A DNA stretch of 40,586 bases, from assembly GCA_944322025.1 (NCBI GenBank), contig CALUOH010000060.1, positions 1 through 40,586 of the forward strand, written 5' to 3'. Position 1 is the first letter of the stretch, and each line of letters opens with the position of its first letter. Shown here in pieces: positions 6,321 through 40,585 of this stretch. This DNA comes from an uncultured Bacteroidales bacterium (GTDB lineage: Bacteria > Bacteroidota > Bacteroidia > Bacteroidales > Paludibacteraceae). The position numbers and the translations under genes are program-made. The notes beneath the pieces are model-generated. The model was not told where the DNA came from. It worked only from the letters and a program-made list of their open reading frames with translations, and made no database searches.

Positions 6321-6389
6321 CAAAAAGTGGTTAAAAACACGTACTCTCGAGCCAGCGGCCAGCCAGCCCTAAGCCAGCCCCTACGGAGC
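6321..6389 (+). repeat. Interspersed intergenic repeat, copy B
   Basis: CAAAAAGTGG is followed by the core GTTAAAAACACGTACTCTCG, then AGCCAGCGGCCAGCCAGCCC, a spaced AGCCAGCCC and CTACGGAG. It is almost identical to copies C and D. It lies between convergent genes (kinase ending 6109, lipoprotein ending 6532). The short ORF running through it encodes the repeat itself and is not treated as a gene. Confidence 0.9.
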
Positions 6390-11962: not shown

Positions 11963-12034
11963 AAAAAGTGGTTAAAAACACGTACTCTTGAGCCAGCAGC
12001 CAGCCAGCCCTAAGCCAGCCCCTCCGAAGCCACT
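11963..12034 (+). repeat. Interspersed intergenic repeat, copy C
   Basis: AAAAAGTG, the core GTTAAAAACACGTACTCT, then TGAGCCAGCAGCCAGCCAGC, AAGCCAGCCC and CTCCGAAGCCACTCCCC. It is nearly identical to copy B over about 60 bases, and lies in a convergent gap between the AraC gene and the S41 peptidase pseudogene. Confidence 0.9.
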
Positions 12035-14182: not shown

Positions 14183-14240
14183 GAAAAGTAGTTAAAAACA
14201 CATACTCTCGAGCCAGCAGCCAGCCAGCCCCTACGGAGCC
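14183..14240 (+). repeat. Interspersed intergenic repeat, copy D
   Basis: GAAAAGTA, then GTTAAAAACACATACTCTCG (one change from the core), AGCCAGCAGCCAGCCAGCCC and CTACGGAGCCTCTCCCC. It lies between the S41 gene start and the ruvB terminator. The gap 14023-14378 otherwise holds a run of nine C at about 14132-14140, an AT-rich stretch and the ruvB terminator. Confidence 0.88.
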
Positions 14241-22013: not shown

Positions 22014-22073
22014 GTGTCCGTAGGGGCTTCGGAGCCGCTCCGGCGAGAGTACGTGTTTTTAACCACTTTTTGC
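22014..22073 (-). repeat. Interspersed intergenic repeat, copy E
   Basis: On the minus strand: CAAAAAGTG, core GTTAAAAACACGTACTCTCG, then CCGGAGCGGCTCCGAAGCCC and CTACGGACACCC. Its left flank (CCCCTCAAACGCAAAAAGTG on the minus strand) is almost the same as that of copy H, so the element extends at least 20 bases before the core. Confidence 0.88.
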
Positions 22074-22110: not shown

Positions 22111-22162
22111 GACTCCGTAGGAGCTGGCTAGCCGCTGGCTCGAGAGTACGTGTTTTTAACCT
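22111..22162 (-). repeat. Interspersed intergenic repeat, copy F
   Basis: On the minus strand: TTAAACGAG, core GTTAAAAACACGTACTCTCG, then AGCCAGCGGCTAGCCAGC and CTACGGAGTC. It is in the same orientation as copy E, about 90 bases away. Its pre-core sequence resembles copies G and I (TTAAT-type) rather than the AAAAAGTG type. Confidence 0.88.
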
Positions 22163-29433: not shown

Positions 29434-29490
29434 TTGGGTTAAAAACACGTACTCTCGACGGAGCGGCCACGGACGCCCTACGGACACTCT
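29434..29490 (+). repeat. Interspersed intergenic repeat, copy G
   Basis: TAATTTGG, core GTTAAAAACACGTACTCTCG, then ACGGAGCGGCCACGGACGCC and CTACGGACACTCTCCCC. It is in tandem with copy H, about 93 bases apart and in the same orientation. A C-rich stretch precedes it (29390-29425). Confidence 0.88.
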
Positions 29491-30964: not shown

Positions 30965-31058
30965 TAAACTGCAAACCGAATGCCGCACCTTGACTTGCCA
31001 GGATTCTGACAGGGCGCGGACTTCACCCTATTGAATACAAAACAAACAGATGACTGCT

Positions 31059-33125
31059 ATGAAAAAAACTATCTTAACCCTGGCCGCCTTATTGGCCTTG
31101 ACCTCAGCGGCCGCTCAGGAAAAGTCCACACGGACCATGCGCATATTCCACGATGGAAACATAATCTACTCCCGCGATGTCGCTCTGGTAGACAGCATCA
31201 ACTTTCTCCTCGACAATGGCGGGGACAGCAATCCCGGCGGTGACGGAAACCCCGGCGACTCAAGCCAGATATACGCCGGCGTAATAGCCTTCAACTCCGA
31301 CGTGAACCAGCTGCCTATAACCGATGACCTCGACGCGGTGCGTATGTTCATAAACTCCCAGACAAACGACAAGGACTTCACTGCATTCGCCTACTCCGTA
31401 TCGCAGGGCAACAGGATGTTCGACGCCGAAGGCCTCCCGCAGTTCGACAAAATTTTCATGCTCAACTTCTCCGACGGCACTGACAACTACTCAAACCGCA
31501 AATGGGGCGACGAGGGACGCATGGTCAGCCCGGCCAACGTCTACGACACCGCACGCTTCGACCTGATGCAGAGAACGGGGCTCAACTCCTACGCCATCGG
31601 CTTCGGAGACGATGTCGGCTTCGGAGAGAAAATGCGCAAAGTCGTCACCGGCAACGGCAGTTACCGCAACGCCGCATCGTCCGCTCAATTACAGCCCACT
31701 TTCAACGAAATTGCGAACTCCATAATAGCATCATCCAAAAACGTAATGCTCAAAACAAACTCAGGCTACTTCTTCGAGGGCAGCCACAAATATTTCCGCT
31801 TCTCATTCGTAGCTGACGGCGGCCTGCGTGACACAATATTCGCACGGTTGGACGGAAACCCCGCCGACGGCTTCTCACTGAACGTCATAGACCCGGGCTC
31901 ATTCGCACAGTTCGACTCCCCTGCCCGAGGCACGGAAGATGCCGCCACAGGCAAAGTGCTAATCCCGCTCAACAACCTGAAATTCATCCACGGCGGCGAA
32001 GAGATACAGTTCGACTTCGAGGTTGAGGTCTCATTTGACGGCTCGATGTACTACACCGATGTGGAAGAGGCATCGACTGCCGAATCAATCAGCAAACGCA
32101 TTGCCGTAGTCCTTGTACTTGACTGTTCCTCATCGATGGGCGAATCATTCGCCCCCATGCAGGAAGCCGCCATAGACTTCATCGAAACTCTCGAAGAGGC
32201 TGACCCCTCGCAGGCAAACGGCAGGATGGTGCTTGCCGACTTCACCGAAAAACTCAACGGCATGCAGCTCAACATGGTAGCCGTAAAGGGCGGCAAATTC
32301 GTCATGGGGGCACAGAGTGCCGGCCCCGCTCTGCCAAACTACGACCCCGATGCCGATACCGACGAACAGCCTACCCACAACGTCACACTCTCCGACTTCT
32401 TCATCGGCGAGACCGAAGTGACGCAGGAACTCTGGGAATACGTAATGGGAGCGCACAACATCACACACTACCCCAAAGACGCTGAGACCGTCTACCTCTA
32501 CCCCGCATTCACCGCCGGAGGCTCACTCGTCGAGACAGGAGGCACCGACATGTACGGCGCCTCCGAACCATCCTCATCCTCCGGCGACGCCGACAGCATC
32601 CCGGTATTCTATGTCTCTTACAACGACATCACCGGCAAACACGGATTCCTCGACCGCCTCAATGCCCTGACCGGCAAAAAATACCGTCTTCCCTCCGAAG
32701 CCGAGTGGGAATACGCCGCCCGCGGTGGACAGAAGAACCGCTACACCCGCGAGACCACCGATGCCACAGGAGCTCCGTCCGACACCGCAATGTACATCTA
32801 CGCCGGAAGCAACGACGTGGAAACGGTAGCGCAGTTTCACGACAACGCATACCGGACACCCATGCAGGTCAAAAGCCTCTCTCCTAACGACCTCGGCCTC
32901 TACGACATGAGCGGCAACGTGGACGAGTGGTGCTGCGACCGCTACGGCAGATACACCGGCGAAACACAGACCGACCCCCAAGGCCCCGACACAGGCAACT
33001 ACCGCGTCATAAGGGGAGGATACTACAGTAGCGGCGAAGCCGATTGCCGTGTCTCAGCCCGTAGAGACATCAGCCCGTCAATCAGATATGAATATATCGG
33101 TTTCCGCCTTGCACTATCCCGGTAG
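31059..33125 (+). CDS. Secreted FGE/SUMF1-like protein with a permuted VWA domain
   Basis: A 688-residue protein with a signal peptide ending TSAAAQ. A short segment (MRIFHDGNIIYSRDVALVDS) comes first. Residues about 72-220 look like the second half of a von Willebrand A domain (IFMLNFSDGTDN, NSYAIGFGDD). A beta-rich part spans about 225-335. Only then, at about 347-400, come the first strand and metal-site motif VLVLDCSSSMGES and the second strand. From about residue 405 a formylglycine-generating-enzyme (FGE-sulfatase) domain runs to the end: VAVKGGKFVMG, FFIGETEVTQELWEYVMG, RLPSEAEWEYAARGG and LYDMSGNVDEW. The FGE catalytic cysteines are not obvious, so it is probably a structural or binding version. 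The VWA half order is unusual. Confidence 0.8.
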   Translation: MKKTILTLAALLALTSAAAQEKSTRTMRIFHDGNIIYSRDVALVDSINFLLDNGGDSNPGGDGNPGDSSQIYAGVIAFNSDVNQLPITDDLDAVRMFINSQTNDKDFTAFAYSVSQGNRMFDAEGLPQFDKIFMLNFSDGTDNYSNRKWGDEGRMVSPANVYDTARFDLMQRTGLNSYAIGFGDDVGFGEKMRKVVTGNGSYRNAASSAQLQPTFNEIANSIIASSKNVMLKTNSGYFFEGSHKYFRFSFVADGGLRDTIFARLDGNPADGFSLNVIDPGSFAQFDSPARGTEDAATGKVLIPLNNLKFIHGGEEIQFDFEVEVSFDGSMYYTDVEEASTAESISKRIAVVLVLDCSSSMGESFAPMQEAAIDFIETLEEADPSQANGRMVLADFTEKLNGMQLNMVAVKGGKFVMGAQSAGPALPNYDPDADTDEQPTHNVTLSDFFIGETEVTQELWEYVMGAHNITHYPKDAETVYLYPAFTAGGSLVETGGTDMYGASEPSSSSGDADSIPVFYVSYNDITGKHGFLDRLNALTGKKYRLPSEAEWEYAARGGQKNRYTRETTDATGAPSDTAMYIYAGSNDVETVAQFHDNAYRTPMQVKSLSPNDLGLYDMSGNVDEWCCDRYGRYTGETQTDPQGPDTGNYRVIRGGYYSSGEADCRVSARRDISPSIRYEYIGFRLALSR

Positions 33126-33149
33126 CGCGTGCCTCACCGTAGCGACATC

Positions 33150-33197
33150 GGGCGGGCGGCAATGAGATGTTTCTATCTCATTGCCGCCCGCCATTTT
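33150..33197 (+). terminator. Intrinsic terminator after the FGE/VWA gene
   Basis: GGCGGGCGGCAATGAGA and TCTCATTGCCGCCCGCC form a perfect 17-base stem around a short loop, followed by ATTTTCC. Confidence 0.88.
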
Positions 33198-33306
33198 CCT
33201 GCGCCCTCATACGCATCCGCCATCACCCTCATAACCTCCTCCCCATCACCCCACTCCCCCGCCCTCCGCCGCCTCTTTCTCTCCTCACCTCCCTCCTTGT
33301 TAATCA

Positions 33307-33361
33307 GAGTTAAAAACACCTACTCTCGCGCCAGCGCCCAGCCAGCCCCCACGGACACCCT
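33307..33361 (+). repeat. Interspersed intergenic repeat, copy I
   Basis: TTAATCAGA precedes GTTAAAAACACCTACTCTCG (one change from the core), then CGCCAGCGCCCAGCCAGCCC and CCACGGACACCC. A C-rich tract lies immediately upstream (33241-33300 has 37 C and 4 G). It is the last repeat before the AT-rich RiPP region. Confidence 0.88.
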
Positions 33362-33768
33362 CCGCACCCGACACCCTGTCTCATCACCCATTCCTGCCGC
33401 CTCTTCGCGTAGTTTACCCTGTTTCCTGACTGCACATAGTGTTATTAATAGCTAACATCCCGACTGTTTCGCGCATGAATCAGACATATATTCCCGATTA
33501 TCTGACGACTGTAAGAACTAATCCTATGTTATAAAACATAACATCCATACACCCATTCCCGTACTTGATTGCACAACTGACTGTTTTACAATTTCTTAAC
33601 TTCATAAATATCGATTTCAACTGCGGTCAAATTGCATATTAACTATTTTTGATATACACAACCATTGCTTCGTGTTATATATTTCACTATCTTGCATATG
33701 GATTTAGAGATAAGTGGTGTTTGCTTATCTAAAATCCCGATTTATTAACCATTTTAATCTCTGATATT
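33362..33768 (+). other. AT-rich intergenic region and leader upstream of the RiPP precursor
   Basis: No gene is seen. Base composition drops sharply to AT-rich from about 33430. A weak promoter candidate, TATCTTGC at 33688-33695, differs from the TAnnTTTG consensus at one base, and ATTGC lies roughly 25 bases before it. The precursor ATG is at 33769, giving a leader of about 65 bases that ends TTTTAATCTCTGATATT. Confidence 0.45.
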
Positions 33769-33930
33769 ATGAAAGATTCAGATTTGATTAAGAAAGATGA
33801 GGTCATCTTCACACCGGAAGAACTGACCCAGTTGGAAAACCTTGAAATCTTAGGTGGCAAACAAATCACCGAGGATACAAAGCCTATGTCAGACTTAATA
33901 GGTTGTTTCCACTACTACAATGTTTGTTAG
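33769..33930 (+). CDS. Double-glycine RiPP precursor peptide
   Basis: A 53-residue peptide too short for usual gene-length cutoffs. Residues 1-30 form an acidic leader (MKDSDLIKKDEVIFTPEELT, then QLENLEILGG), with a hydrophobic pattern before Gly-Gly as recognised by C39 peptidases. The 23-residue core starts KQITEDTKPMSDLI and ends GCFHYYNVC, with two cysteines seven positions apart and a Tyr pair. It lies 83 bases before a radical SAM/SPASM gene and upstream of a C39-ABC exporter, the expected partners. It resembles the GG-Bacteroidales natural product precursors (TIGR04149-type) in architecture, but I cannot assign it firmly. Predicted fate: modification by the radical SAM enzyme, cleavage after GG and export. 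Confidence 0.85.
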   Translation: MKDSDLIKKDEVIFTPEELTQLENLEILGGKQITEDTKPMSDLIGCFHYYNVC

Positions 33931-33971
33931 TGAAAGGTTTTCTCTAGCAAATAGTTAAATGTCTAACCAAT

Positions 33972-33996
33972 GTACAGCAACTAATAGTTGCTGCAC
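33972..33996 (+). promoter_or_regulatory. Hairpin between precursor and maturase genes
   Basis: CAGCAAC and GTTGCTG pair around TAATA, with flanking G-C and T-A pairs. There is no U-run, so it probably stabilises the precursor mRNA or partly attenuates, giving more precursor than enzyme. Confidence 0.5.
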
Positions 33997-34013
33997 ATAA
34001 AATTAAATGATGA

Positions 34014-35285
34014 ATGAAATCAAGTTACTATAACCATATTATATATGAAGCGAATACCGCATATTGGTTCAATGCATTAACTCTTTCTTGTTTTAAGACG
34101 ACTCGACACATTGGCTCGCTTTTAGAAAAAACAATAAGCAATAATCCTGATGTGTTGCAAAAAATCAATGTGGGATTATACGATAAATTACTCACTAAGG
34201 GTTTTATCGTCAATGATGATGTAAACGAAAGAGCCATCATTTTAGAAGCTAACGAAAGGAAGGTGCTGGATAAGAACTATTTACTTGTTATAATGCCAAC
34301 ATTGAATTGTAATTTTAGATGTTGGTATTGTATACAGAATCATATTGCCTCTAAAATGTCTGATGATATAATGCAGCGTCTGAAAAATCATATTGATTAT
34401 ATGATTGAAGTAGAGAAAATAACTTCACTCCATATTGAATGGTTCGGGGGTGAGCCGTTTATGTATTTGGATGAAGTTGTCAAACCTTTGTCTTTGTACG
34501 CCATATCAAAATGTAAAGATGCTAATATACCATTTGTTAATACTGCTACGACAAATGCCTATTATTTAACTCCGGATAGGGCAATGCTATTGGAACAACT
34601 AAAATTTTCATATTTCCAAATAACAATTGATGGGATAAAAGACAAGCATGATAAAGTAAAATTTCAGAAAGGATGTTCATCAGCATTTGATTTTGTGTTG
34701 AATAACATCAATGAAATGTTACTTAAAATAAGTTCCGTGTCTGTGATGCTGCGATTTAATTATATACACGACAATTTGGATCTGTCCATTATAAAGGAAC
34801 TTAATGACAGAATTAATGTTGAAAATAGAAAACGTGTATTGATTCATATACGAAAAGTTTGGCAGGAAAAAGTGGATAAAAGCCGAAATCCTTTTATACA
34901 ACAGTTATCATTAGCTTTTATAAAGGCGGGTTATATGGTAAACGATTTTGAGTTCGTGAAAGATTTTGTTCCATGTTATGTGTCTCGAAGATATTATAAT
35001 TCTATTTGTTACAATGGACAAGTATTTAAATGTTCCGTCAATACGGACATGAATGAAGGAAAATACCATGGGTTGCTGAATGAAGATGGCACAATAACTC
35101 TGAGAGAAGATATGGAAAATATCTGTTTCCGTAAGAATTATATGCTTGACATATGTATTGATTGTAAATTTCTTCCTATATGTATGGGACAATGTCCTAA
35201 ATTCAATTCTCTTCCTGATGCGAAATTTTTTTGTAAGATGCAGGCGGTGAATGATGGTGAACTTTCGGAATTGATAATAAAATAA
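34014..35285 (+). CDS. Radical SAM/SPASM peptide maturase
   Basis: A 423-residue cytoplasmic enzyme. The radical SAM cluster motif CNFRCWYC has Cys99, Cys103 and Cys106; the SAM-binding GGEP motif is at residues 145-148. The C-terminal SPASM region has cysteines in PCYVSRRYYNSICYNGQVFKCS and CIDCKFLPICMGQCP, and a last one in FFCKMQ, enough for auxiliary iron-sulfur clusters. The first about 85 residues may recognise the leader. Such enzymes make thioether, carbon-carbon or epimer changes on peptide cores; the actual change here is not predictable. It follows the precursor and precedes the barrel gene by 18 bases. It is strikingly AT-rich compared with downstream genes, indicating recent transfer. 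Confidence 0.93.
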   Translation: MKSSYYNHIIYEANTAYWFNALTLSCFKTTRHIGSLLEKTISNNPDVLQKINVGLYDKLLTKGFIVNDDVNERAIILEANERKVLDKNYLLVIMPTLNCNFRCWYCIQNHIASKMSDDIMQRLKNHIDYMIEVEKITSLHIEWFGGEPFMYLDEVVKPLSLYAISKCKDANIPFVNTATTNAYYLTPDRAMLLEQLKFSYFQITIDGIKDKHDKVKFQKGCSSAFDFVLNNINEMLLKISSVSVMLRFNYIHDNLDLSIIKELNDRINVENRKRVLIHIRKVWQEKVDKSRNPFIQQLSLAFIKAGYMVNDFEFVKDFVPCYVSRRYYNSICYNGQVFKCSVNTDMNEGKYHGLLNEDGTITLREDMENICFRKNYMLDICIDCKFLPICMGQCPKFNSLPDAKFFCKMQAVNDGELSELIIK

Positions 35286-35303
35286 ACTATATTGAGCGAG
35301 AAT

Positions 35304-37643
35304 ATGCAAAAAATAGTAACATATAGGTCTATATGTCTTGTTTGTACATTGCTGTTTTACAATGTTATAGTTGTTTCTCAGCACACCCTCCGTGGACGCT
35401 ATGTTGATGGCGACACCCTCGCCCTGCCAGGCGTGAATGTCGCCATCCTATCGCAGGACTCCGCCCTCGTCACCGGCACTACCACCGGCAACGATGGCCA
35501 CTTCACAATCAAAGGCATACCCTCCGGAGACTATATCCTCTCCGCCACAATGATAGGCTATGATGACAACGTGCGCCCACTCTCCCTCCGCTCCGACCTC
35601 GACCTCGGCACAATCTTCTTCTCCGAGTCGAAAAACCTCCTCGGCGAGGTAGTCGTCATGTCCGACATCCGCCGCACCTTCGCCAACCGCGACGAGCTGC
35701 TCCTCCCGCAGGAGGTGAAGCGCAACAGCCAGAACGCCGTCGACGCCATCGCGCTGATGCCCAAGTTCTCCAAAAGCCTCGACGGCAAACTCTCCACTAT
35801 CGACGGCGGCGGCCTGCTCATCGTGATTGACGGACGCAAGGCCACCGACGAAGACCTCGCGTCCATCCCGCCAGACAACATAAAGAAACTCATCCACTAC
35901 ACAACGCCCCCCGCACGTTACATGGAAGAGAATGTAAGTTCCGTACTTGAAGTAATTACAAAAAAGCGCACAGGCCGCACCTATGAACTTACGCTAAACA
36001 CTACCAACGGTCTCCTCTCCGCTAACGGACAGAACATCCTAACTGCCGTCTACGCCGACTCCGTCAACAGAATTTCCGCCTCCTACCGCATCGGTTATCA
36101 GGACTTCCGTCACGGCGAAACGGAGAACATATACCGCTATCTCGATGGCGGCTCTTGGAGCGAGAACCGCTATACCTCCTCCGCCTCGACAAGCCGCTAC
36201 ATAAGGCAGGATGCCGTACTGGACTACTCACTGACAAAGGAGCGTTATATGTTCGCCGCCGAGGCGTCATACAGCCGTTCGCCCCACGAGAACACCACTC
36301 CGCAGGATGTCCTTCTCTCCCTGCCCGGCGGCACTCTTCTCTCCGGCACTGGCAGCAGCCTCGTCCGCAACATGGAGCAGACCGCCGCCCTCGACCTCTA
36401 CCTCGCTCTCCGCCTGAAAAACAGTCAGGAGCTGCTCTTCAACGTCGTGAATACATACTCCATGTCCGAGGCCGACAACGCCCTCTCACGCACAATAGCG
36501 GATGACCCCTCGCGGGACTATTCGCTCCGTAACCTCTACGACAACAGCACCTACTCTCTCATAGCGCAGGTCACATACGCCACTCCCCTCTGGGGCGGCC
36601 AGTTCGAGGTCTCCGGCCGCTTTGAACACAAGCAGCTCAACCAGCTCTACAACTTATCCGTACGCACCCGCCTCAACTACCAGACCGAATACCTTACCCT
36701 CTCGTGGACAAAGCGTTGGAACCGTTGGAATCTCTACGCGTGGCTCAGTGCGCAGAACCTCACGTTCAACGGCCCGACACACTATAACTTCTTCAACCTG
36801 CTGCCCATTGCCATAGTCAGCTACAGCCCCACTGACCTCATCACACTTAAACTCCATGCAGGCGGCGCGACCAATATGCCTAAAGTCGGCGACCTCGCCG
36901 GCTCCGTAGTCAGCATCGACGACCGCTACACCTCTGTCGGAAATTCCACGCTCCGCCCCTTCTATGGCTATCAGGCAATGCTCTCGATGGACTTGAAGAA
37001 CAAGGCGAACACCCTCTTCTTCTCTCCTTTCATAAAATACTGGTACGCCAAGGACTACCACAGTTCCATGCTCTACCGTGGTGCGGACGGTCTCTTCTAC
37101 AAGCAGACCCGTCAGGCCGACAACCCCGTCTCCGTACAGATGTACGCTTCGCTCCAGTGGCGGCCTGTGAAATGGTTCACTCTCCTTGGCAGCGCGTTCG
37201 CCTGCTACAATGAGTACTACACCGTGAGCAATGGCCTCATGCGCCGTTGGTGGGGCAACCAGACCCTCGGCGCACGCTTCAACGTGTGGGAGCTTCAGGC
37301 CGAGTTCCTCTGCTTCAACCCCTTCGGCCAATATCTCGACAGATCCGACAATGGCGACTTTATCTCGCACACTGTTCCGTCATACCGCGCCACCATCACA
37401 TGGACGCACCGCGATCTCAAAGTCGGCCTCGGCTATCTCCACGACCCCGGCTCGTCCGTCACTGCCGCCATTCCTGACATGACCGTTGAGGAAAGCACCC
37501 GCTGGCGCGAGATGCGCCACTTCCTCTTCCTCGACTTCTCCTATCGTTTCCGCTATGGCGACGCTCACCGCCGCACCGTGCAGAAACGCCTCAACAACGA
37601 GGACACCGACACCGGCTTGACTGATGACATGAGAGCAAGATAA
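35304..37643 (+). CDS. TonB-receptor-like outer membrane barrel protein of the RiPP cluster
   Basis: A 779-residue outer membrane protein. A signal peptide (about residues 1-26, ending VVSQ) is followed by a carboxypeptidase-regulatory-like domain (LPGVNVAILSQDSALVTG, GHFTIKGIPSGDYILSATMI), a plug-like region (IDGRKATDEDLASIPPDNIK, VLEVITKKRTG) and a beta-barrel of the OMP_b-brl_3 type, with many alternating aromatic strands to residue 750. It may form the outer membrane port for the exported peptide, or take it up. The ATG at 35304 follows the maturase gene by 18 bases; a TTG at 35292 is an alternative. The first roughly 25 codons are AT-rich and the remainder GC-rich, a sharp chimeric junction near 35380. 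Confidence 0.88.
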   Translation: MQKIVTYRSICLVCTLLFYNVIVVSQHTLRGRYVDGDTLALPGVNVAILSQDSALVTGTTTGNDGHFTIKGIPSGDYILSATMIGYDDNVRPLSLRSDLDLGTIFFSESKNLLGEVVVMSDIRRTFANRDELLLPQEVKRNSQNAVDAIALMPKFSKSLDGKLSTIDGGGLLIVIDGRKATDEDLASIPPDNIKKLIHYTTPPARYMEENVSSVLEVITKKRTGRTYELTLNTTNGLLSANGQNILTAVYADSVNRISASYRIGYQDFRHGETENIYRYLDGGSWSENRYTSSASTSRYIRQDAVLDYSLTKERYMFAAEASYSRSPHENTTPQDVLLSLPGGTLLSGTGSSLVRNMEQTAALDLYLALRLKNSQELLFNVVNTYSMSEADNALSRTIADDPSRDYSLRNLYDNSTYSLIAQVTYATPLWGGQFEVSGRFEHKQLNQLYNLSVRTRLNYQTEYLTLSWTKRWNRWNLYAWLSAQNLTFNGPTHYNFFNLLPIAIVSYSPTDLITLKLHAGGATNMPKVGDLAGSVVSIDDRYTSVGNSTLRPFYGYQAMLSMDLKNKANTLFFSPFIKYWYAKDYHSSMLYRGADGLFYKQTRQADNPVSVQMYASLQWRPVKWFTLLGSAFACYNEYYTVSNGLMRRWWGNQTLGARFNVWELQAEFLCFNPFGQYLDRSDNGDFISHTVPSYRATITWTHRDLKVGLGYLHDPGSSVTAAIPDMTVEESTRWREMRHFLFLDFSYRFRYGDAHRRTVQKRLNNEDTDTGLTDDMRAR

Positions 37644-37655
37644 CAAAGCAAGAAA

Positions 37656-39854
37656 ATGTGGCAGCGCGGACATATACGGCTTATAAGGCAGCACGACGCT
37701 ATGGAGTGCGGCATCGCCTGCCTCCGCATGGTGTGCGGATATTTCGGGCGTGAATATTCGGCGGAGAGCCTTTCGCGCCTCTGCCCGCCCACGGTGCAGG
37801 GCGTGTCGCTCTACGCCCTGAGCGAGGCGGCGGGTGCCGTCGGGCTTCACTCCGTATGCGGACGCGCCTCCCTCGACATGCTCCGCCGCGCCCCGCTCCC
37901 CTGCATCCTCCACTGGGATCAGAACCACTTCGTGGTGCTATATCGCATCCGCCGTGGCCGTTTCCTCATAGCCGACCCCGGCAAGGGATTTGTCTCGTAC
38001 ACAGAAAACGAAATGTATGACCACTGGATTAGCACCTCTTCTGCCGGTGAGGAAAAGGGTGTCGGCATGTTCGTCCAGCCCACCCCGTCATTCTATGGGC
38101 AGAAGGGTGAGCGCGGCACGGAACGCCGCTCGTTCCGTTTCCTGATGGGCTATGTGCGCCAGTACCGCCGCTATTTCGGGCAGATTGCCGTAGGGCTTCT
38201 CGTGGCCAGCTTGCTGCAGCTGATATTCCCGTTCCTCACTCAGGCGATAGTCGATGTTGGCATTGCCCACCGCGACATAGGCTTCATCTACCTCATACTC
38301 CTTGCCCAGCTCATGCTCACCCTGAGCCGCACGGCTCTCGACTTCATCCGCCGCCAGCTGCTGCTCCATATCAGTATGCGCATCAACATATCGCTCGTCT
38401 CCGACTTCTTCATCAAGCTGCTCAGGCTCCCCATGTCGTTCTTCGACACAAAGCTGCTCGGCGACCTGCTCCAGCGCATGAACGACCATGCCCGCGTGGA
38501 AAAGTTCCTCACCACTCAGGCTCTCAACGTCATGTTCTCGCTCTTCGGCTTCATCGTCTTCGGCGCGGTGCTGTTCATTTACAGCCGCCTGATATTCGCC
38601 GTTTTCCTCGTCGGCAGCCTCCTCTACGGCCTCTGGATAACCCTCTTCATGCGCAGGCGCAAGGCTCTCGACTACCGCCTCTTTGAACAGCAGGCCATAA
38701 ACAGCAGCAAGACATACCAGTTCATCACCTCCATGCAGGAGATAAAGCTTCAGGACTGCGAACAGCGCCGCCGTTGGGAGTGGGAGGACGTGCAGGCCGA
38801 TATGTTCGATGTCAATATGCAGTCGCTGCGCCTCCAGCAGGCTCAGGAGGCCGGCAGCATATTCATCAACGAGATAAAGAACATCGTCATAACTGTCCTC
38901 GCCGCAACTGCCGTCATTGGAGGGCAGATGACCCTCGGAATGATGCTTGCCGTGCAGTACATCATCGGCCAGCTCAACGCCCCCGTGGAGCAGCTGATGG
39001 GTTTCATCTATTCGCTTCAGGACGTGCAGATAAGTCTCGAACGCATCAACGAGATACACGCCAAGGAAAATGAGGACGCCCTCTCCGGCACACTCCGCAC
39101 ACTCCCTGACCCGGCGGCCGGCATCGTCCTTTCCCGCGTGGACTTCAAGTATGACATAAACCGCCCTGACAAGACACTCGACTCCATCTCTCTCACCATC
39201 CCCGCTGGGAAAGTGACAGCCATCGTTGGCGCAAGCGGCAGTGGCAAGACCACGCTCGTAAAGCTCCTGCTCGGTTACTATCCTCCCATTGCCGGAAAAA
39301 TAACAGTAGGCGGTGAAGACATCCGCAAGTATGACATCATATGGTGGCGCAGGCAGTGCGGAGTGGTCATGCAGGACGGCGTGATATTCTCCGAAAGCAT
39401 AGCGCGCAACATTGCCGTGGACGACGGCGAGATTGACACCTCCCGCCTTGCCGCTGCTGCGCGTATCGCCTGCATCAGCTCATACATCAACTCCCTGCCC
39501 CTGAAGTACAACACTGTCATCGGTCAGGACGGCGTAGGCCTCAGCGCGGGGCAGCGGCAGCGCATTCTGATAGCCCGCGCCGTCTACAAGAACCCCGCCT
39601 TCATCCTCCTCGACGAGGCAACCAACTCTTTGGATGCCAACAACGAACGCGCCATTGTCGAGAACCTCGACAGTTTCTATCGTGGCCGTACCGTACTCGT
39701 GGTAGCCCACCGCCTCAGCACTGTGAGCCACGCTGACAATATCGTTGTACTCGACCACGGACGCATCGTCGAGCAGGGTTCGCACGAAGAACTCACAGCA
39801 CGGCGCGGAGCATACTACAACCTCGTTAAGAACCAGCTTGAACTCGGAAACTAA
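37656..39854 (+). CDS. C39-peptidase-containing ABC transporter
   Basis: A 732-residue inner membrane exporter that cleaves double-glycine leaders and moves the released peptide. The N-terminal C39 peptidase (residues 1-140) has the catalytic Cys18 in QHDAMECGIACLRMV, His91 in NHFVVLY and Asp107 in IADPGKG. The membrane domain has about six helices (residues 160-450). The nucleotide-binding domain shows Walker A GASGSGKTTLVK, signature LSAGQRQRI and Walker B FILLDEATNSLD. It starts 12 bases after the barrel gene. Its substrate should be the peptide at 33769-33930, given the GG motif. Confidence 0.96.
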   Translation: MWQRGHIRLIRQHDAMECGIACLRMVCGYFGREYSAESLSRLCPPTVQGVSLYALSEAAGAVGLHSVCGRASLDMLRRAPLPCILHWDQNHFVVLYRIRRGRFLIADPGKGFVSYTENEMYDHWISTSSAGEEKGVGMFVQPTPSFYGQKGERGTERRSFRFLMGYVRQYRRYFGQIAVGLLVASLLQLIFPFLTQAIVDVGIAHRDIGFIYLILLAQLMLTLSRTALDFIRRQLLLHISMRINISLVSDFFIKLLRLPMSFFDTKLLGDLLQRMNDHARVEKFLTTQALNVMFSLFGFIVFGAVLFIYSRLIFAVFLVGSLLYGLWITLFMRRRKALDYRLFEQQAINSSKTYQFITSMQEIKLQDCEQRRRWEWEDVQADMFDVNMQSLRLQQAQEAGSIFINEIKNIVITVLAATAVIGGQMTLGMMLAVQYIIGQLNAPVEQLMGFIYSLQDVQISLERINEIHAKENEDALSGTLRTLPDPAAGIVLSRVDFKYDINRPDKTLDSISLTIPAGKVTAIVGASGSGKTTLVKLLLGYYPPIAGKITVGGEDIRKYDIIWWRRQCGVVMQDGVIFSESIARNIAVDDGEIDTSRLAAAARIACISSYINSLPLKYNTVIGQDGVGLSAGQRQRILIARAVYKNPAFILLDEATNSLDANNERAIVENLDSFYRGRTVLVVAHRLSTVSHADNIVVLDHGRIVEQGSHEELTARRGAYYNLVKNQLELGN

Positions 39855-39860
39855 AACGCT

Positions 39861-40334
39861 ATGGCAACTGAAAATAACAACATAGAGCTGCGCAGCGAAA
39901 AGGCGCGACGCATCATCGGCGAAGTGCCTCCACTGCTCGTCCGCAGCGGAATTGGCATAATCACAGCCGTCGTGATTGCCCTCCTCGTCGCCGCCTCGAC
40001 AATCACCTGTCCGGAAAGCGTAACTGTCCATGCTGTATTGACTTCATACCATAACGGCAAAGCCTCACTCACACTCGCGGCGGACAGCCTCACCGCATCA
40101 CGCCTGTCCGGCAGCGTCAGGTTCTCTTTTGATGCCGACACTTGGCCCGACTCTCATGCCGCCGTCTGCGGCACTATAACTAAAATAGTATCATCGTCAC
40201 CCCTTACTGTTATTGCCTCAATTGACAGCTTGTCGCCCTGCCTGCTTCCTGTCGACAGTACACTTCATGGCCAGTGTCGTCTGCTACTTAATGACCGCAC
40301 GCTTATCTCTACTGTTTTTAATTCGGTCCGATAA
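39861..40334 (+). CDS. Short HlyD-like membrane adaptor
   Basis: A 157-residue protein starting 6 bases after the transporter gene. The N-terminus (NNIELRSEKARRIIGEVPPL, LVRSGIGIITAVV) and the membrane helix at about residues 28-50 match the opening of Bacteroidetes HlyD/membrane-fusion proteins. The rest (LTLAADSLTASRLSGSVRFS and then a strand-rich end, LLLNDRTLISTVF) resembles their C-terminal beta domain. The lipoyl and long coiled-coil sections found in usual adaptors of about 430 residues are absent. The frame ends in a normal stop with no sign of a lost remainder downstream, so it looks like a true short form. It probably assists the ABC transporter. Confidence 0.75.
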   Translation: MATENNNIELRSEKARRIIGEVPPLLVRSGIGIITAVVIALLVAASTITCPESVTVHAVLTSYHNGKASLTLAADSLTASRLSGSVRFSFDADTWPDSHAAVCGTITKIVSSSPLTVIASIDSLSPCLLPVDSTLHGQCRLLLNDRTLISTVFNSVR

Positions 40335-40474: not shown

Positions 40475-40585
40475 TTAGGATTTCTCGGTGTCGTACGGCA
40501 ACGAGAAATCCTTTATTTTCTCCCAAATAGCAAGGAAAGCTTTCCTTGTTTTCAAGGATCTTGCCAGATAAAGAATATGCTTGTC
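40475..40585 (-). CDS. C-terminal fragment of an unrecognised protein (cut by window edge)
   Basis: The minus strand from the right edge reads 36 residues to a TAA at 40475-40477: DKHILYLARSLKTRKAFLAI, then WEKIKDFSLPYDTEKS. The amino acid pattern looks protein-like (amphipathic helix, mixed charge), but the stretch is short and I recognise no family. It converges on the RiPP operon. Confidence 0.4.
   Translation of the reverse strand, partial: DKHILYLARSLKTRKAFLAIWEKIKDFSLPYDTEKS
40477..40520 (+). terminator. Intrinsic terminator at the end of the RiPP operon
   Basis: AGGATTTCTCG at 40477-40487 pairs with CGAGAAATCCT at 40502-40512, followed by TTATTTTCTCC. It lies about 140 bases after the short HlyD-like gene. 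A second palindrome, AAGGAAAGCTTTCCTT, follows near 40531. Confidence 0.7.

Follow-up and report, generated by a model that had tools for sequence, protein, structure and literature searches.

How does a modified peptide cross two membranes when its gene cluster shows no TolC gene and its adaptor lacks the hairpin that would reach TolC? This question is raised by the right end of the window, the 40,586-nucleotide stretch of DNA analysed here from an uncultured Bacteroidales bacterium (genome G000, a draft assembly in 73 contigs); its contig ends where the window does. Here, five forward-strand genes encode a double-glycine precursor, a radical S-adenosylmethionine (SAM)/SPASM maturase, an outer membrane barrel, a C39 peptidase ABC transporter (PCAT), and a short HlyD-like protein, hereafter the mini-adaptor. 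The reading preferred here, to which we assign a probability of roughly 0.5, is that an AT-rich cassette was joined at a predicted signal-peptide boundary to a GC-rich exporter, and that the cluster makes a cross-linked peptide of ~23 residues that is exported in two steps without TolC.

Gene content of the cluster

The precursor (33769-33930, 53 amino acids) has a 30-residue leader (33769-33858) ending in Gly-Gly, followed by a core of 23 residues with two cysteines (33859-33930, including the stop codon). Next come the maturase (34014-35285, 423 amino acids), whose Pfam Radical_SAM match scores 45.6 bits (cut-off 29.5), and the barrel gene (ATG at 35304, end at 37643, 779 amino acids), with a CarbopepD_reg_2 match of 45.4 bits. 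This match exceeds its curated cut-off, as do those of the PCAT (37656-39854, 732 amino acids) to Peptidase_C39 (102 bits), ABC_membrane (98.7 bits), and ABC_tran (108.9 bits). The mini-adaptor (39861-40334, 157 amino acids) consists of an HlyD-type anchor, a membrane helix, and a small beta domain; like the precursor, it reaches no Pfam or NCBIfam cut-off. Successive genes are separated by only 83, 18, 12, and 6 bases, and both coordinates and Pfam domains agree with the tight five-gene order given in the initial annotation.

A proposed cassette boundary at the signal peptide

Near position 33436, to the left of the precursor gene, GC content drops from 59% to 32%; it recovers to 58% at 35380. 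The AT-rich segment so delimited (33436-35380, the best three-segment fit over 33001-36000) comprises the precursor, the maturase, and the signal peptide of the barrel (35304-35378, 27% GC), and the mature barrel (35379-37643) follows it. A break in homology falls at the same place. In G108, a genome of the same genus, the barrel, ABC, and adaptor genes are 90.9% identical to those of the window at the DNA level, and the alignment begins at window base 35379; 53 of the 60 bases 3' of this junction are identical, as against 20 of the 60 bases 5' of it. Base 35379 opens the first codon past the signal peptide, as read by eye without a signal-peptide program, and the join is in frame. The signal peptides of the two barrels are unlike, that of G108 having a GC content of 65%, and the G108 type is also carried by a third barrel, P0122 (95% identical, protein sequence only). 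The other type is therefore present in two of three barrels, with DNA seen for G108 alone. Neither the composition break nor the junction was part of the initial annotation; both are new here.

The simplest reading of the two breaks is that the cassette arrived together and was joined in frame to a resident exporter. It is likely that the precursor, the maturase, and the signal peptide were grafted as one unit, the genus having possessed the exporter beforehand. Consistent with such a history, GC content at third codon positions is lower in the maturase than in the barrel in 24 of 25 loci (the window and 24 hand-picked ones) and lower than in the ABC gene in 15 of 15, which fits repeated arrival from AT-rich sources.

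Several points limit this reading. The low third-position GC may instead be a standing property of the maturase gene. G108 is 84% complete and shows just 333 bases 5' of its barrel, and its ABC gene, otherwise well conserved, has a one-base frameshift in the C39 domain (L008, G108 C111), which may be an assembly error. The G108 exporter also sits elsewhere, preceding a gene read by eye as glyceraldehyde-3-phosphate dehydrogenase, and the window genome's counterpart of that gene has no exporter within a 12-kb stretch. Counting for the preferred reading, ratios of nonsynonymous to synonymous substitution rates (dN/dS) relative to G108 are 0.15 for the barrel, 0.065 for the ABC gene (658 codons, frameshifted start left out), and 0.39 for the adaptor.

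A dispersed repeat with the core AAAAACACNTACTCTCGC has eight copies in the window at no more than two mismatches, and none in shuffled sequences. They lie at 254-271, 6333-6350, 11974-11991, 14194-14211, 22043-22060, 22140-22157, 29441-29458, and 33312-33329, the last being on the forward strand immediately left of the AT-rich segment. In G108, the repeat flanks the exporter on either side, and the matching site in the window genome is apparently single-copy.

The barrel and the exporter

The structural model of the barrel (pLDDT 84, pTM 0.70) comprises a beta-sandwich, a plug, and ~22 strands, and it matches Cir at a Foldseek E of 4e-20, the matches listed being TonB-dependent transporters. 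The mature protein combines a CarboxypepD_reg domain, a plug, and a TonB-dependent-receptor-fold barrel, the parts that mark Oar-type proteins. In its N-terminal part, LLGEVVV resembles the TonB box of SusC-type proteins, and 13 of 21 barrels fit the pattern used for this motif. The transporter has the N-terminal C39, ABC membrane, and ATPase domains expected of a PCAT. No TolC gene was seen in the cluster; a TolC profile built from two loci found TolC in those two alone, so that linkage to TolC is unusable as evidence.

A short adaptor that goes with the barrel

The mini-adaptor can be aligned over 62 columns to the membrane-anchor part of full-length adaptors (hhalign probability 98.9%, E 3e-17), and its anchor and membrane helix are thus homologous to those of HlyD-type proteins. 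It is without the ~240 alignment columns that hold the lipoyl domain and the alpha-hairpin, and no Pfam HlyD or lipoyl domain is found in it. Its structural model is made up of a short helix and a membrane helix, with an end that is all beta. A Foldseek search gave nothing below E 0.001; in a separate comparison, HlyD, EmrA, and MacA entries stood level with those of ATP synthase and helicases, and the absence of a family from it excludes nothing. The initial annotation regarded this adaptor as truncated, which is right as to form and wrong if taken as a local accident, given that a type of 157-164 residues recurs directly 3' of the ABC gene in other loci. Still smaller forms of 49-79 residues, consisting of anchor and helix alone, occur in related loci. 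Truncation by the contig end was considered and ruled out: the gene is complete, its stop codon lying 252 bases short of the window end, and the short type recurs.

Adaptor length was compared with the presence of a barrel, defined as one within 3 kb of the ABC gene, in 83 sources (the window, G108, a further contig of the window genome called C2, and 80 loci). These gave 38 adaptor matches, from which L045 and two matches of L075 were dropped for want of a nearby ABC gene, and L085 as cut by a contig end (as was one of the L075 matches), leaving 34, or 30 once near-copies were removed, with the window and G108 both retained. Where the barrel is present, all 19 adaptors are short, 12 having fewer than 100 residues and seven having 100-300; where it is absent, nine of 11 are longer than 300 residues, two have 100-300, and none is below 100. 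The short adaptor thus goes with the barrel (Fisher p 3.8e-6; because the loci are interrelated, this p-value and the one below are too small). The two exceptions are L041, where the ABC gene runs off the contig and a barrel lies further away, and L074, whose protein nearly copies, in shortened form, the 432-residue one of L113. No adaptor match was found in 10 loci with barrel and ABC gene, nor in two barrel-less ABC loci, and the detection profile was derived partly from loci of this same set.

In a second set, the anchor alignment was searched in 295 genomes of the order, 102 of which matched; 60 chosen places with 61 matches yielded 51 non-redundant usable ones, after eight were dropped for lack of a nearby ABC gene and one for a contig end. 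Agreement is weaker here, 15 of 18 matches being short with a barrel and 13 of 33 without (p 0.003). This count includes L196 as both short and full, probably one broken gene, and L162 as barrel-less, yet a PF14905 barrel protein adjoins it.

Because an adaptor of this form lacks the hairpin that would reach TolC, the TonB-receptor-like barrel is the likely exit for the peptide. The earlier proposal that the barrel replaces TolC is accordingly favoured by the adaptor lengths and is retained as a prediction.

None of the short adaptors run against curated models (11 against Pfam, three against NCBIfam) reaches a cut-off, whereas the full-length adaptors of L092 and L113 pass Pfam HlyD_3; the full-length adaptor of C2 is likewise under its NCBIfam cut-offs. 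Among the listed titles and abstract openings of open-licence papers, no short or anchor-only adaptor was recognised in Bacteroidetes peptide export. As for C2, this contig of G000 carries a second peptide cluster (L120:6597-13384, minus strand) in which a split lantibiotic dehydratase (PF04738, PF14028) accompanies a PCAT and a 438-residue, full-length adaptor.

Precursor and maturase

In a protein search, the precursor found itself, recorded on four contigs, and one other entry, P0123, a protein of 52 residues that is 78% identical and retains much of the cysteine-containing end. The maturase has a relative of 79% identity, P0003, and given that the longest contig reported is 3574 bases for both P0123 and P0003, the two genes are probably neighbours. 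Further relatives of the maturase were taken as the best 80 (L035-L114) of 209 stretches from a scan of named bacterial genomes; the names borne by their records include Prevotella, Muribaculaceae, Bacteroides, and Parabacteroides. A double-glycine open reading frame lies upstream of the maturase in 29 of 36 loci (L035-L070, near-copies counted). Eighteen of these were found by a fixed pattern, which had no match in a 578-kb reverse-strand control, and 11 by eye (L035, L044, L046, L050, L052, L054, L059, L060, L061, L067, and L070); none was found upstream in L049, at a contig edge, or in L055, L056, L058, L063, L065, and L069. The cores of many relatives contain C-x-N-x(3)-G-C motifs, and the window core is without one. 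A precursor conserved beside a homologous maturase, as expected of a ribosomally synthesized and post-translationally modified peptide (RiPP), is therefore seen in the P0123/P0003 pair and across the 29 loci, which bears out the set of precursor, maturase, and PCAT originally proposed. In L069 (14513-14650), from Hallella multisaccharivorax, an apparent second precursor copy stands beside a disrupted ABC gene.

In addition to its Radical_SAM domain, the maturase has the CX3CX2C motif and the SPASM cysteines characteristic of radical SAM/SPASM peptide maturases, invariant or almost so across 23 sequences. Its best solved relative in a profile search, albeit distant, is 5wgg (E 3e-19), which we take to be the thioether maturase CteB. 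With this as the nearest solved relative, the window enzyme probably forms thioether bonds. Membership in TIGR04148/04149/04150, models that presumably belong to NCBIfam, had been suggested and is rejected: the precursor matches no NCBIfam family at E 1, and for the maturase, the 25 NCBIfam models listed out of 43 all score below their cut-offs, the best being TIGR04463 (130 versus 525 bits). The maturase occurs in one of nine genomes of the genus (E 1e-40) and six of 358 of the family (E 1e-50). Right after its stop codon, a tail like that of P0003 can be read in another frame (35285-35326), overlapping the barrel start.

Distribution across Bacteroidales

The layout of the cluster is not unique; it recurs in Bacteroidales records under the names Prevotella, Muribaculaceae, Bacteroides, and Parabacteroides. 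The barrel stands between the maturase and the ABC gene in 20 of the 23 ABC-bearing loci of L035-L070 (near-copies included), in keeping with the earlier view that it is part of the same cluster. An obligatory link of the barrel gene to this type of enzyme does not hold: around its 29%-identity relatives in G059 and G077, inspection of 16-kb stretches by eye recognised neither a maturase nor an ABC gene. When 393 genomes of the order were searched with the barrel, scoring up to two candidates for each genome listed, the window's genome alone matched at E 1e-60, and P0122 was the sole entry listed in a protein-database search among the 7998 scored candidates sharing most words.

Related-cluster regions of 10.8-15.9 kb (L039, L040, L068, and L105) are 99.7-99.98% identical across species records, the names borne being Prevotella jejuni, P. 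brunnea, P. amnii, and Segatella baroniae. Such near-identity suggests recent spread of related clusters among Prevotella/Segatella, provided that none of the records is contaminated.

Proposed mechanism and alternatives

In the proposed pathway, the maturase would bind the leader and link the two core cysteines to core residues via thioether bonds. Cleavage behind Gly-Gly by the C39 domain would accompany transfer of the core into the periplasm by the ABC transporter, which the mini-adaptor would assist, and release would follow through the plugged TonB-receptor-like barrel, much as Oar serves PopC in Myxococcus. Extending this pathway to a general Bacteroidales system, that is, a TolC-free two-step exporter with an Oar-like TonB-driven exit, an anchor-only adaptor, and payload cassettes recombining exactly at the signal-peptide cleavage point, is tentative, and we hold it with less than even confidence.

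The strongest rival makes the barrel a receptor, serving re-uptake of the peptide (of the metallophore type or as a signal) or self-protection, with release via a TolC encoded elsewhere. Uptake is the rule for the TonB-dependent-receptor fold, which the barrel has together with its plug, and the 50 Foldseek matches listed are importers by title; nevertheless, the loss of the TolC-docking parts from the adaptor, a shortening that goes with the barrel, and the place of the barrel between maturase and ABC gene in most loci render a receptor rather unlikely. Ordinary type I export in trans, in which the C2 adaptor would bridge the transporter to TolC with the short protein merely a helper, draws on the fact that the same genome encodes a full-length adaptor along with a PCAT of its own. 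That adaptor, however, is already paired with its adjacent transporter, and other loci repeat a short adaptor immediately 3' of the ABC gene, so we consider this route improbable.

Two other explanations concern the history of the locus rather than the exit. The AT-rich segment could be a chimera produced in assembly, or the cassette could have been lost from the sister lineage and a new signal peptide acquired there, with no graft in either case; the draft state of the assembly and the end of the G108 contig near the barrel speak for this. It is doubtful indeed, given that the join is in frame at the predicted cleavage point, that the precursor protein is recorded on four contigs, though the junction is seen in one of them, and that two of three barrels carry the other signal-peptide type (in DNA, G108 only). 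Decay of the cluster, leaving no product, would account for the out-of-frame P0003-like tail as a lost end of the maturase and for the C39 frameshift of the sister exporter, yet the maturase motif cysteines are intact, exporter dN/dS is low, and the frameshift may be an assembly error; this is the explanation to which we give least credence.

Relation to known systems

PMC10352776 (Fernandez-Cantos et al. 2023) describes four Bacteroidales biosynthetic gene clusters, BGC6, 7, 8, and 9, with PCAT and outer membrane protein genes and no identified membrane fusion protein (MFP), and raises the question of whether a distinct mechanism operates or the MFP was missed. As described there, BGC6-9 resemble the window cluster in having a PCAT, an outer membrane protein, and a GG motif in most precursors, and BGC6-8 also in a radical SAM enzyme; they differ in that BGC6-8 have YcaO as well and BGC9 has LanM, and a short adaptor is identified in the window cluster. 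The short adaptors run against Pfam and NCBIfam all fall under the cut-offs, which may explain the MFP reported missing; a direct candidate for it is the short adaptor. Adaptors of 49-79 or 157-164 residues are a candidate answer to the question of RiPP exit posed by that survey for Bacteroidales. The same survey reports LanB as absent from the 1,136 Bacteroidales genomes that it mined; C2 carries the split lantibiotic dehydratase described above.

According to PMC6434023, Oar is a TonB-dependent transporter required for PopC secretion in Myxococcus. It shares with the barrel a CarboxypepD_reg extension, a plug, and ~22 strands, and has a TonB-box-like motif to which LLGEVVV of the barrel may correspond; Oar serves a protease, whereas the window barrel, a candidate exit, shares its operon with a PCAT. 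If the barrel is the exit, peptides would join the short list of TonB-dependent secretion, and a cassette ending at the signal-peptide boundary, if true, would show how new peptides get fitted to an existing exporter.

With HlyB-HlyD-TolC and colicin V systems, the cluster shares the HlyD-type anchor, and with the colicin V ABC transporter, as described in PMC10352776, an N-terminal C39 domain; in contrast, its adaptor lacks the lipoyl domain and hairpin, and the cluster shows no TolC gene. Bacteroidetocins (PMC6671954) are similar in double-glycine leader, PCAT, and occurrence in Bacteroidales, and differ in that their regions encode a transmembrane protein and mostly a thiol oxidoreductase; the terms HlyD, TolC, and TonB have no occurrence in the main text of that paper.

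Flanking features

Beyond the mini-adaptor gene, a terminator-like hairpin followed by a T-rich stretch is found at 40477-40512 on the forward strand (-20.8 kcal/mol, z -3.95). Directly upstream of the cluster, a secreted-looking protein with a sulfatase-modifying-factor-like domain is encoded at 31050-33125; its von Willebrand A match falls under the cut-off, and its relative in G108 precedes a gene that reads, by eye, as leuS.

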